Below, piece by piece: positions 1 through 30,156 of a DNA stretch of 64,000 nucleotides. A model generated the notes under the pieces. That model was not told the origin of the DNA and did not search any database. It worked only from the letters and a program-made list of their open reading frames with translations. A program made the position numbers and the translations under genes. How positions within the stretch are numbered: the stretch's first letter is position 1; every line of letters starts with the position of its first letter. The DNA lies in contig JACDDA010000002.1 in assembly GCA_013817245.1 (NCBI GenBank), forward strand, positions 156,252 through 220,251, read 5' to 3'. Source of the DNA: Gammaproteobacteria bacterium. Lineage in GTDB: Bacteria > Pseudomonadota > Gammaproteobacteria > HTCC5015.

Positions 1-12
1 CCCCCCCCCCCC
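1..12. repeat. 12-base poly-C run at window edge
   Basis: The window opens with twelve consecutive C residues, immediately downstream of the stop codon of the minus-strand SDR gene. Nothing else in the window has a homopolymer of this length. It could be a contig-edge or base-calling artefact, or a real intergenic homopolymer; the sequence to its left is not visible. Confidence 0.5.
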
Positions 13-24077: not shown

Positions 24078-25037
24078 ATGCGCATCGTGTTTGCGGGCAC
24101 TCCCGCGTTTGCGGTACCCACTTTAGAAATTTTATTGCAGCTGCCGCGCGCCCAAGCAGAAGTGGTTGCGGTTTATACGCAACCTGATCGTCCTGCTGGT
24201 CGTGGTCGTCATGCACAAGCGAGTCCCGTTAAAAGCTGCGCGATCGCGCACGACATTCCTGTTTATCAACCACTGCATTTAAAAAGTCCTGAAGCGCAGC
24301 ATGAGTTAGCGGCTTTGCAAGCAGATTTAATGATTGTGGTTGCGTATGGTTTGCTGTTGCCGCCCGCCGTCTTAGCGATGCCGCGTTTAGGTTGTATGAA
24401 TTTGCATGCATCATTGTTACCGCGTTGGCGCGGTGCTGCGCCCATTCAATACGCGATTTTGCAGGGCGACACACGCACGGGTATTACGCTGATGCAAATG
24501 GATAAAGGTTTAGATACCGGCGCAATGTTAGCAACAACAATCATAAACATTGGTGCACACGAACTCGCGAGTGAATTGCATGATCGTTTAGCCGTCAGCG
24601 CTGCACATTTATTGCACGAACAATTTAACGCACTCGTGAAGGGTCAATTGTCTGCACAAACACAAGACGACACTCACGCAAGTTACGCGCACAAAATTCA
24701 AAAAAACGATGCGTGGTTAGATTGGCAACAATCCGCCAACACCTTGGCGAATAAAGTACGCGCCTTTAATGCGTGGCCTGTTGCACAAACTTTGTGGGCG
24801 CACAAAGATAAAGATGAAACTTTGCGCATTTGGCAAGCGCAGGCTATTGCGGGCGATTATTCTGCGTATGTTAAAGGCAGCGTAATTAAAACGGATCAAC
24901 AAGGTATTTGGGTTGCAACCGCCGATGGCGCACTAGTCATTACGCAATTGCAACGCGCAGGCGGCAAACCGTTATTGGCGCAAGATTTTGTAAATGCTTT
25001 TCCACTCAACAACACCGTGTTTCATTCTGCTATTTAA
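24078..25037 (+). CDS. fmt: methionyl-tRNA formyltransferase
   Basis: A 319-aa enzyme that formylates Met-tRNAfMet using 10-formyl-THF. The N-terminal formyl-transferase domain has RIVFAGTPAFAVPTLE, YTQPDRPAGRGR, the catalytic NLHASLLPRWRGAAPIQYAIL and GDTRTGITLMQMDKGLDTGAML. The C-terminal OB-like domain begins near 205 with KIQKNDAWLDWQ and FNAWPVAQT. It begins 8 bases after def, the enzyme that removes the formyl group it adds. Confidence 0.97.
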   Translation: MRIVFAGTPAFAVPTLEILLQLPRAQAEVVAVYTQPDRPAGRGRHAQASPVKSCAIAHDIPVYQPLHLKSPEAQHELAALQADLMIVVAYGLLLPPAVLAMPRLGCMNLHASLLPRWRGAAPIQYAILQGDTRTGITLMQMDKGLDTGAMLATTIINIGAHELASELHDRLAVSAAHLLHEQFNALVKGQLSAQTQDDTHASYAHKIQKNDAWLDWQQSANTLANKVRAFNAWPVAQTLWAHKDKDETLRIWQAQAIAGDYSAYVKGSVIKTDQQGIWVATADGALVITQLQRAGGKPLLAQDFVNAFPLNNTVFHSAI

Positions 25038-25038
25038 T

Positions 25039-26406
25039 ATGTCGCAAATTCCTCCCGATAAATCAGCTAAAGCTACTAAAACCGGCAAAACGCAAGCGCG
25101 TTTATTGGCGTTGCAAGTGTTGCAACAAGTGTTGGCCGATGGCGCTTCATTAACCGATGTTTTGCAGCGGCTACAAAGTAAAACCGATGGCGTTAATTTG
25201 GCGATGGTGCAAGCGTGGTGTTTTGGCGTGTTGCGCGATTATTGGCGTTTAGATTTAGTGTTAGAAAAATTACTCACCAAACCTTTGCGCGAACGTGATG
25301 ACGATGTGTATTTATTGTTGTTGCTAGGTTTGCATCAATTACGCGCGGCGCGTGCTGCCGAGCATGTGATTGTGAATGAAACCGTCGCCGTAACAGAGAG
25401 CTTAAAAAAACCCTGGGCAAAAGGTTTGGTTAATGCAGTGTTACGTAATTACTTGCGACAGCACGAAAGTTTACACGCAGAATTGTTGAGCAATCCTTTG
25501 TATCAAAGCGCATGGCCTGCATGGTTAGTGGAGCGCGTACAACAAGATTGGCCAACACAGGCGCAAACGGTGTTTGATGTTTGGCGCATTCAAGCGCCCA
25601 TGACCTTGCGCGTAAATACGCGTTTGCTCAGCGTTGCGGATTATCAAATGCAATTAGCGCAAGCAAACATTAGCGCACAGCAACATCCGCATGTTGCAAG
25701 CGCATTAGTGCTTGCGCAGCCGATTGATGTAGAACAGTTGCCCGGTTTTCAACAAGGTTTTGTTTCGGTGCAAGACGCAGCGGCGCAACATGCGGCGGTG
25801 TTATTAAATCCGCAAGCCGGTGATCGCGTGTTAGATGCTTGCGCAGCACCGGGTGGTAAAACTTTGCATTTGTTAGATCAACAAGCTGAGCTAGCAGAAT
25901 TGTGGGCGTTAGATATTGATGCGCAGCGCTTGCAACGCGTCCAAACTAATTTAGCGCGTTATGGCGAACATGCTGCCAAAATTCATTTGCGCGCCGCAGA
26001 CGTCAATCAAATTAGCAGTTGGTGGGATGGACAATTATTTGATCGAATTTTATTAGACGTACCGTGTTCCGGCACCGGCGTGATTCGCCGTCATCCCGAC
26101 ATCGCGCACTTACGTCGCGCTAGCGACATTCAAGATTTACAACTGCGCCAACAAACTTTGTTGCGCGCCTTGTGGCCGTTATTAAAAGTGGGCGGAAGTT
26201 TGTTATATGTGACCTGTTCGATTCTTAAAGCCGAAAACGAAAATCAAATCGCCGATTTTTTACAACAAGAAAGCAGCGCAAGTTTAATTCCGTTTGAATT
26301 AAGCAATGGCTTAGCGCGCCCACAAGGATGGCAGCTATTACCGAGTCAAGGTGACGCAGGTGAAATGGATGGTTTTTATTATGCGTTGTTGTGCAAGAAA
26401 AATTAA
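25039..26406 (+). CDS. rsmB: 16S rRNA m5C967 methyltransferase RsmB
   Basis: A 455-aa SAM-dependent methyltransferase (RsmB/Sun/Fmu). An N-terminal NusB-like RNA-binding domain (about 15-150) precedes the Rossmann methylase domain. There the SAM-binding VLDACAAPGGKTLHLL, the first cysteine in LDVPCSGTGVIRRHPDI and the catalytic cysteine in LYVTCSILKAENENQI are visible. The start at 25039 directly follows the fmt stop (one base between); an open frame to 24994 overlaps fmt and is not conserved. In relatives trkA follows; here the block ends and an accessory region begins. Confidence 0.95.
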   Translation: MSQIPPDKSAKATKTGKTQARLLALQVLQQVLADGASLTDVLQRLQSKTDGVNLAMVQAWCFGVLRDYWRLDLVLEKLLTKPLRERDDDVYLLLLLGLHQLRAARAAEHVIVNETVAVTESLKKPWAKGLVNAVLRNYLRQHESLHAELLSNPLYQSAWPAWLVERVQQDWPTQAQTVFDVWRIQAPMTLRVNTRLLSVADYQMQLAQANISAQQHPHVASALVLAQPIDVEQLPGFQQGFVSVQDAAAQHAAVLLNPQAGDRVLDACAAPGGKTLHLLDQQAELAELWALDIDAQRLQRVQTNLARYGEHAAKIHLRAADVNQISSWWDGQLFDRILLDVPCSGTGVIRRHPDIAHLRRASDIQDLQLRQQTLLRALWPLLKVGGSLLYVTCSILKAENENQIADFLQQESSASLIPFELSNGLARPQGWQLLPSQGDAGEMDGFYYALLCKKN

Positions 26407-26670
26407 AAGATCTCTATCTATAATATTTAGTATGGGACGTTATTGAATAACGTTAGAAATGCGGCAGGCTTGGCTTATGACGATACATGCAGAAAACAGG
26501 AAAATTAAAGGGTTTTATCTTTTGATTTGGGTTACTCGCATCCATGAAGAAAATTTTTGAGGCAGTTTACTCGTGCCATTTGTAACCTCGTTGAAATATA
26601 TAGCTGCTTAAAAACAACAACTACTGCATTTATTCGCTTTTTAACCAAGCACTGGTTAATATCCCGCGTC
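26407..26670. other. AT-rich intergenic DNA with two inverted repeats
   Basis: No gene found. Two clean inverted repeats stand out: ACGTTATT/AATAACGT around one base (26437-26453), and TTAACCA/TGGTTAA with loop AGCAC (26641-26659). The latter is 11 bases before the heptamer tract. No T-run follows the second hairpin, so it is not an obvious terminator and may be an operator. Confidence 0.5.
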
Positions 26671-26774
26671 ATTACTCATTACTCATTACTCATTACTCAT
26701 TACTCATTACTCATTACTCATTACTCATTACTCATTACTCATTACTCATTACTCATTACTCATTACTCATTACT
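26671..26774 (+). repeat. 7-bp tandem repeat (ATTACTC) x ~15
   Basis: A perfect head-to-tail array of the heptamer ATTACTC, about 14.9 units over 104 bases with no visible interruption. It ends 45 bases before the ATG of the HAF-repeat autotransporter gene. The unit length is not a multiple of 3 and the tract lies outside the coding sequence, so slippage would change spacing rather than protein sequence. A frame running through it would encode a meaningless ITHYSLL repeat. Confidence 0.95.
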
Positions 26775-26819
26775 GGTAATTTTTACATTGCCACAAAACA
26801 CTATAAAACAGGACAGATC

Positions 26820-28874
26820 ATGAAGTTTCCCATTAAGTCATTCGCACTATCAACAGCCGTTGCACTGTGCTGGGCATTACCGACATTATCCGCTCAAGCG
26901 GCTGATATTCTTACGGGCTTAGGCGATTTGCCGGGCAACAGTTTTTCTAGTATCGCTTATGGCGTCAGCGCGGATGGTTCCGTGGTGGTGGGCAATGGCT
27001 ATAGCACTAGCGGTTTTGAGGCATTCCGTTGGACAGAGGCGGGTGGCATGGAGGGCTTAGGCTATTTAACAGGTGGCAGTTATAGTCAAGCCTCCGACGT
27101 TAGCGCCAATGGTTCGGTCGTGGTGGGCCAAGGCAATAGTGCTAGCGGCACTGAGGCATACCGTTGGTCCCAGGGCGGTGGCATGGTCGGCTTGAGCGAT
27201 TTGGCAGGCGGCGTTTTTGAGAGTTCAGCCAGGGGTGTCAACGCCGATGGTTCGGTGGTGGTGGGCTATGGTACTAGCACAGTGGTAAGGAGGCATTCCG
27301 TTGGACCCAAGGCAGTGGCATGGTTGGCTTGAGCGATTTGGCAGGCGGTGTTTTTGAGAGTTTCGCCGAAGCGGTCAGTGCGAATGGTTCGGTGGTTGTA
27401 GGCTATGGCAGTGGCGTTAGTGGTCAAGAGGCATTCCGCTGGACTCAAGCGGGCGGCATGATCGGCTTAAGCGATTTGCCCGACGGCGGTTTTGGTAGTG
27501 CTGCCTACGCTGTCAACGCCGATGGTTCGGTGGTGGTGGGTGAAGGTTATAGCCTTGACGGCCGAGAGGCATTTCGTTGGACGCAGGCGGGTGGCATGGT
27601 CGGCTTGGGCGATCTGCCAGGTGGCATTTTTAGTAGTACGGCCTGGGGTGTCAACGCCGATGGTTCCGTGGTCGTAGGTGATAGTGTTACCGCTAACGGA
27701 AGTGAGGCCTTCCGCTTGGACCCAAGCGGGGGGCATGCAACGCGTACAAGATTGGTTGGCCGCTGCTGGTGTCAGCGTCGCTGGCTGGACGAAGTTAAAT
27801 GTTGCCACCGATGTGAATGCGAATGGCAATGTGGTGGTGGGGAGGGGAACCAGTACGAACGGTGACGAAGCCTTCATCGCTCGCGTAGGCCCAGCTACTT
27901 CAGGGCTTGTTGGTCTCACCGATCTTAGTAATAGTCTTGCCTCGACCGTCGCAACCCATATGCAGTTCGAAGGGCTTAACGCTCTAACCCTCAACGGCGC
28001 GCACCATCGTACTTTAATGGACATCGCCATGACCGATAGCAATAGCGGTTACTGCGGCTGGGCGAGTGGCGATATAGGCATACTCAATCGCACCGATAAC
28101 GCGCATGGTTGGATGACCTTGGGCGAAGTGGGCGCTTGTCATGATTTCAAGACGCAAAACCTACGTGCCGGTCTCGGCATTGGTCACAGCCAAGCCAGTC
28201 AAGACCAAGTTTATGGCGGTAAAAGCAAGATCAATGGTGAGTATGTTTTAGGCGAACTCGATTGGGCGATTCCTCTTTCGACGTCAGACAGCAGCCTTGT
28301 CGCCTCAGCATTGGGCATGATCGGTCGCTGGGATGCAGACCTTAGACGTGGCTACTCTTTTGGTGCTGTTCAATCGAACGGCAACACTGATCTGGACGCT
28401 TGGTCGCTGCGTGCTCGTCTTGATTGGCGCGATGCGTTTAAGCTCAGTAGCATCAGCTTCACCCCGATCGTTCAATACACCACTACCCAAACCGACGTAG
28501 ATGGCTACCAAGAAAGCGGTGGCACCGCGCCTGCGCGCTTTGATAGCCAAAGCCACACTGCTAAAGAAAGCCGTGTAGGCTTGACCGGTGCTCACCCCAT
28601 GAGCGAAGCCACGACGGTGCGCGGTCATGTGGAATGGGTGCATCGCTTTGACGACCAAGGCGCTACGGTCAGTGGTAACGCCAATGTATTGCAAGTCGTT
28701 GCCCTTCCCTTCAGCTTCGAAGGCAACGAGATCCGTCAGGATTGGGGTCGTGTTGGTGCTGAAGTTGAGCATCAACTCAGCAAAAGCAGTGTGATTCTTG
28801 TATCGGGCAATGTCGCCAGCAAGGGACAAGATGCTGATGCCAGTATTGGCGCGAGCTGGAAGTTGTGGTTCTAA
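26820..28874 (+). pseudogene. HAF-repeat autotransporter, two compensating frameshifts
   Basis: A surface-protein gene with a signal peptide (MKFPIKSFALSTAVALCWALPTLSAQA) and six roughly 45-residue HAF-type repeats (GLGDLPGG...SADGSVVVG...EAFRWTQAGGM). A divergent seventh follows, then an autotransporter-like beta-domain of about 300 residues ending in Phe (SIGASWKLWF). The frame breaks twice. Near 27279-27280 one base is missing (STV VRRH instead of STSGKEAFRW), leading to a stop at 27332. Near 27716 one extra T (CGCTTGG for CGCTGG) returns to the original frame. AGGA at 26810-26813 serves the ATG. Bases appear more GC-rich than in neighbours, hinting at acquisition. It could be a decayed gene or carry two sequencing errors. 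Confidence 0.8.
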
Positions 28875-29043: not shown

Positions 29044-29730
29044 TTACGCTGCGGGCGCTCCCCACCAAATAACGTTGCCTAACCATTCAAGCTGCGCAGC
29101 TTGCGCGCTATTAATTTCAAATTCGCGATAGGCGTGATTATCGGCGGCAATTAATAAATTGCCATTGAGTGCGCGTTGCACGCGACGACAAATAATCTCT
29201 TGATTCATGGCTAATATATAAACGCCTTCGTTTTCATAACGACGTTGCGCGGTATTAATTAACAGCAGTGCATGATGATTAAACGTCGGTAACATGCAAT
29301 CGCCGGGCGCTAACATCAAACGTAAATTTTCCGGAATAACATCAAATTGAGCTAACCAACTGCGACGAAAAGCAAATTCGCCCACTTGTTTAGAGTCGAG
29401 CTTGGCCGAAAGCAAGTGATGGGTGAGCGTGGGAATAGTAATGAGATCTGCCGCGAAGGCATAACTGCCGCTAGGATCAGCCACGGTTAATGCGGTTTGG
29501 TTGTGATCATGAGGCGTTCCATTAACCAACCATTCGAGTGAAATATGGCCAGCTTTGGCGATCGCAACTAGCGGTTCTACCGTCGGTTTACTTTCGCCGC
29601 TGATATAACGATAAAGTTGTGATTCGGAAATGCGGGCTACATCAGCAAGTTGTTTTTTGCCGCCTGTACGCTGCGCAATCCAGTTAATGCGCGCACCTAA
29701 GGCATGAAGAAATTCAGAGTTGTCTGTCAT
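29044..29730 (-). CDS. HTH / S24-type repressor with degenerate catalytic dyad
   Basis: A 228-aa protein. The N-terminal XRE-type helix-turn-helix (about 15-70, KKQLADVARISESQLYRYISGESKP) is followed by a C-terminal LexA/CI-like S24 fold (about 135-225, LRLMLAPGDCMLPTF ... GVYILAMNQEIICRRV ... AADNHAYREFEI). In self-cleaving members the Ser of GDSM and a Lys of VKR form the catalytic pair; here these positions read Cys145 and Arg182, so autoproteolysis is doubtful. The ATG at 29730 has AGGAT upstream; the frame open to 29862 is unconserved. It may have been phage-derived. Targets unknown. Confidence 0.85.
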   Translation of the reverse strand: MTDNSEFLHALGARINWIAQRTGGKKQLADVARISESQLYRYISGESKPTVEPLVAIAKAGHISLEWLVNGTPHDHNQTALTVADPSGSYAFAADLITIPTLTHHLLSAKLDSKQVGEFAFRRSWLAQFDVIPENLRLMLAPGDCMLPTFNHHALLLINTAQRRYENEGVYILAMNQEIICRRVQRALNGNLLIAADNHAYREFEINSAQAAQLEWLGNVIWWGAPAA

Positions 29731-29913
29731 CGCGATCCTGCTCAAATTTCGCGTAATTTTTTTATCATGTGCGTGGTGATCAATTTCGTCATCGCACCGA
29801 CAGTGTTTGCAGCATGCCTGTCGTGCTTTGGTAGATGCAATGTAGTGAATACAAAAATGCACTAAATGAAGGCGTTTTAGTATTTCAATGCGGACGAAAT
29901 AAAGCAGCCCAAT

Positions 29914-30138: not shown

Positions 30139-30156
30139 TGTAGGATAAATCCTACA
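30139..30156. promoter_or_regulatory. GacA-type upstream activating sequence
   Basis: TGTAGGATAAATCCTACA is a perfect inverted repeat (TGTAGGA/TCCTACA around TAAA). It fits the GacA box layout TGTAAG-N6-CTTACA with one symmetric substitution. Its centre is about 67 bases upstream of the predicted RNA start, a distance usual for rsm promoters. Confidence 0.8.

Follow-up and report, generated by a model that had tools for sequence, protein, structure and literature searches.

A perfect 15-unit heptamer array upstream of a HAF-repeat autotransporter gene in a gammaproteobacterium, and its possible role as an hmw-like slippage tract

In the 64,000-bp stretch of gammaproteobacterial DNA analysed here (the window), a perfect array of ATTACTC heptamers lies shortly before a gene predicted to encode a HAF-repeat autotransporter, and this array is real and exceptional for its genome. 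The explanation that best accommodates it, judged from the arrangement of the locus and given a little under an even chance, is that the autotransporter gene has a tract prone to slippage in its leader or promoter, with the number of units grading expression in the manner of Haemophilus influenzae hmw1A and hmw2A. Units of 7 bp would be gained or lost by strand slippage, and their number would then grade surface-protein expression, as with hmw1A/hmw2A, rather than simply switching it. Transcription would start 5' of the array, or read through from the preceding gene, rsmB, in which case the array would be carried in 5' untranslated RNA. A sequence-only reading of this DNA had proposed phase variation at the site. 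Much of that proposal stands, as a perfect, slippable, intergenic array does precede a predicted surface protein, is exceptional in the genome and has a precedent in hmw, which that reading did not cite; among the points that weaken it are the two frame shifts of the gene as assembled and the lack of a promoter-like site above chance.

The array (Table 1) is 106 bp long and comprises 15.14 copies with a 100% match and zero indels in a tandem-repeat scan of the window. Its run of self-matching positions at an offset of 7 is 99 long; ten shuffled versions of the window gave 6–15, and self-match runs at the other periods from 1 to 12 within the window reach only 6–12. It is therefore an uninterrupted short tandem repeat, beyond chance length, in a promoter or leader region. 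The period-7 run confirms the earlier count of about 15 perfect units and the 45-bp distance to the ATG at 26820; of the extent first given (26671–26774), the right edge is correct, but the array begins two bases earlier. All three frames through the array are open on the forward strand, and every frame on the reverse strand has stops. No other ATTACTC array of at least three units is present in the 2.27-Mb assembly, and the array is absent from the other 368 of the 369 gammaproteobacterial genomes searched, in which the genus of the studied organism is represented by one genome. Within an 864-kb sample of the genome (38% of the assembly, window included), no other repeat with a 4–12-bp unit reached at least four units, the next best having 3.1–3.3.

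Table 1. Features of the array locus, in window coordinates
Feature	Position	Strand	Remark
rsmB (16S rRNA methyltransferase)	24994–26406	+	Upstream neighbour, same strand
Mechanical open reading frame, TTG start	26557–26823	+	Read through the array; ends ATGA over the autotransporter ATG
Perfect palindrome TTAACCA-AGCAC-TGGTTAA	26641–26659	.	Nine bases upstream of the array
Perfect heptamer array (TCATTAC)15.1 = (ATTACTC)n	26669–26774	+	Period-7 self-match
Shine-Dalgarno-like AGGA	26810–26813	+	6 nt before the ATG
Autotransporter 5' piece	26820–27332	+	Signal peptide-like start and HAF repeats; loses frame near its end
138-bp tandem repeats, 5.6 copies	26964–27737	+	Encode the HAF repeats
Autotransporter middle piece	27320–27865	+	HAF repeats, another frame
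Autotransporter 3' piece	27678–28874	+	PF03797 beta-barrel, first frame regained

The downstream gene was recognised as a HAF-repeat autotransporter by a domain search, which returned both TIGR02913 HAF repeats (E 1e-13 and 3e-19) and a C-terminal PF03797 barrel (E 3.5e-30). These domains predict a surface or secreted product, although the frame is broken, and they uphold the label of HAF autotransporter given in the sequence-only reading, which had overlooked that the gene is split over three successive reading frames as assembled. Anchor sequences shared among the 138-bp repeats locate two shifts of opposite sign, near 27250–27290 and just after 27705 (27705–27730), and the first frame as assembled yields a 170-residue fragment. 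The shifts may reflect real decay, through which the gene may be inactive in the sequenced line independently of the array, or assembly error inside the 138-bp repeats, which is possible given that the assembly is a draft of 20 contigs with an N10 gap, flanked by homopolymers, just left of the window. This join, at the window's left edge (window 1–12; L212 1661–1764; G000:C2:156160-156263), is made up of 82 G in succession, ten N and 12 C, and probably arose in sequencing or scaffolding instead of representing a genuine tract. Another contig contains 5000 consecutive N (G000:C9:12501-17500, L159), which stand for masked or withheld sequence.

The condition of the gene bears on the main rival, which ranks close behind the hmw-like tract while standing appreciably below an even chance: an array with no regulatory role, which slippage has lengthened within non-coding DNA next to an autotransporter gene of foreign origin that is in decay. 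The split over three frames speaks for such a neutral microsatellite, as does the gene's base composition (GC 55–58%, third-position GC 54–55%), which is unlike that of most neighbours (43–51% and 37–55%) and so consistent with acquisition from elsewhere. The HAF repeats and barrel nevertheless remain coherent across the three pieces, so that any decay would be recent if real, or the shifts assembly errors in the 138-bp repeat. A neutral origin also sits uneasily with an uninterrupted 15-unit array that is an extreme outlier in its genome, and under it the presence of the array 45 bp from the start of a surface-protein gene would be a coincidence. Weak relatives of the barrel piece (26–31% identity) lie on plasmids of Shinella, Rhizobium and Hoeflea, and none was found in viral contigs. 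Convergent with the autotransporter gene is a gene for a CI/S24-type repressor-like regulator (29044–29862, reverse strand), which may be left over from a phage or may serve as a local regulator, and a perfect palindrome, TGTAGGATAAATCCTACA, at 30139–30156 between this gene and an alpha/beta hydrolase gene is a candidate operator.

Surveys of the repeat unit add to the case for neutrality. Among the matches listed from a scan of 84,980 species genomes for four ATTACTC units, most belong to filamentous cyanobacteria, with scattered matches in Bacteroidota, Chloroflexota, Campylobacterota and others. Most of the placeable arrays among these matches are intergenic, and those in tandem gaps show no orientation bias (17 versus 16), both of which favour a neutral microsatellite. 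Period 7 accounts for 177 of the 183 arrays of 5–9 bp in the listed loci, a share inflated by the choice of these loci for their heptamer. In the viral contigs of IMG/VR, ATTACTC was counted 7 times and the same-composition controls ACTATTC, CTTACAT and ATCATCT 12, 10 and 1 times, respectively, with TAACTGA (30) and ATCTTTC (0) for comparison. As two of the three controls were equally or more frequent, which again favours neutrality, the idea of ATTACTC as a special cross-phylum element was dropped. Among long microsatellites, heptamers form the most frequent class in the majority of bacterial genomes examined (Mrazek 2007, in PMC4679880; PMC4692102), and no significant excess of surface functions was reported beside these repeats (Mrazek 2007 and Guo & Mrazek 2008, in PMC4679880). 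The control frequencies fit this published abundance, and the ATTACTC unit seems to carry no message by itself.

The association of the array with its gene is likewise not conserved. No comparable array was found near HAF genes in eight further genomes belonging to the class, in loci reaching about 1.5 kb on each side of the repeat, a span that may miss some 5' ends. The studied genome contains a second autotransporter-barrel gene (E 1e-30; G000:C2:128684-129433, L139), 27 kb to the left of the window, and no tandem repeat was found near it.

How an hmw-like tract might act depends on where transcription begins. The gap from rsmB to the ATG, within which the array sits, measures 413 bp, and no terminator-like site was found between rsmB and the autotransporter gene. 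Two scans of this gap revealed no sigma-70-like sites scoring above shuffled sequence, under sigma-70 rules that may not be those of the host, and the best-scoring promoter pair 3' of the array has its predicted start beyond the AGGA, so that its transcript could not carry this ribosome site. As this leaves no credible promoter in the stretch from the array to the AGGA, the transcript most likely has its start 5' of the array or arises by read-through from rsmB, and the array probably lies within 5' untranslated RNA. A translational in-frame switch, by contrast, was rejected as unlikely, since none of the three frames has an ATG or GTG 5' of the array from which reading continues into it. The sole upstream start candidate is one TTG, lacking a clear ribosome site, and the open reading frame that it begins is probably not a gene. 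Recent insertion of a copied element was also rejected, as comparison with the rest of the genome gave no match to the gap. Comparison of gene order by trkA was set aside: in one relative (G001) a trkA-like gene follows rsmB, and no match to that gene was found in the studied genome.

The missing promoter also weighs on the proposal, made in the sequence-only reading, that each slipped unit would rotate upstream sites relative to the promoter. The arithmetic is correct, 7 bp being two thirds of a 10.5-bp helical turn and three units two full turns; with no promoter above shuffles in the gap, however, the rotation has no anchor. As a complete mechanism, the array would space an upstream operator from a downstream promoter, and expression would cycle every three units. 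The perfect 7-5-7 palindrome just 5' of the array, with no second full match in 864 kb of the genome, suits such a role and is a possible operator, or alternatively an RNA hairpin. No above-chance promoter 3' of the array would keep the AGGA in the transcript, and in hmw, which is the closest heptamer precedent, expression is reported to fall as units are added, with no three-unit cycle described (PMC8262952). Control by helical phase is accordingly considered very improbable.

Marginally less improbable is an effect exerted after transcription, whereby an unpaired, U/A/C-rich repeat RNA immediately 5' of the ribosome site would bind ribosomal protein S1 or another RNA-binding protein, with the number of units setting translation. 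The array RNA is predicted to be 95% unpaired, a comparable role has been put forward for the TAACTGA heptamers that precede start codons in Beggiatoaceae (PMC4679880), and the effect of the hmw1A repeats could be transcriptional or post-transcriptional (PMC8262952). The binding protein is purely hypothetical here, however, and TAACTGA is a different heptamer that occurs in many sets per genome, whereas the ATTACTC array occurs once.

To our knowledge, no repeat-based switch has been described for HAF-repeat autotransporters. That the array genuinely tunes the expression of such a gene, via leader length or helical phase and in a lineage outside the well-studied host-adapted pathogens, is regarded as rather unlikely. 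If unit number does vary and set expression, heptamer contingency loci, known from Haemophilus, would gain an example in a further gammaproteobacterial lineage and one among HAF-repeat autotransporters. The locus would then also discriminate between mechanisms, a period-three response pointing to helical phase and a steady response to leader or spacer length. If not, it would serve as a caution: heptamer arrays are so common in bacteria that lying near a surface gene counts for little by itself.

Several characterised repeat loci resemble this arrangement to differing degrees. Neisseria nadA has in common with the studied array a repeat upstream of a surface-protein gene, in its case a (TAAA)n tract that precedes both the adhesin gene and a promoter that has been mapped and whose regulator is known. 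Moraxella catarrhalis uspA2 encodes a trimeric autotransporter. Its (AGAT)n tract is similarly a short tandem repeat, in the 5' UTR of a surface autotransporter gene, but with a 4-bp unit and with copy number and expression tested (described in PMC4679880). Perfect 7-bp intergenic arrays are shared with cyanobacteria and, as TAACTGA, with Beggiatoaceae, in which there are many arrays per genome, in contrast to the one found here (PMC4679880, PMC4692102). The closest likeness is to hmw1A and hmw2A of H. influenzae, in which 13–38 heptamers lie 69–106 bp upstream of a surface adhesin (PMC2651432), compared with 15 copies at 45 bp in the studied locus; in both, a non-coding 7-bp unit precedes a large surface protein (PMC8262952, PMC2651432). 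A rising number of hmw units lowers both transcript and protein, and most expression comes from a promoter upstream of the repeats, placing them in the 5' UTR (PMC8262952). The systems differ in their unit (ATCTTTC versus ATTACTC) and in their product, a two-partner adhesin as opposed to a one-piece autotransporter; for hmw, changes in unit number and their effect on expression are proven, whereas the studied locus is known from the sequence of one genome. The layout of the array is already known from hmw1A/hmw2A, and the studied locus would be at most another case of that arrangement.
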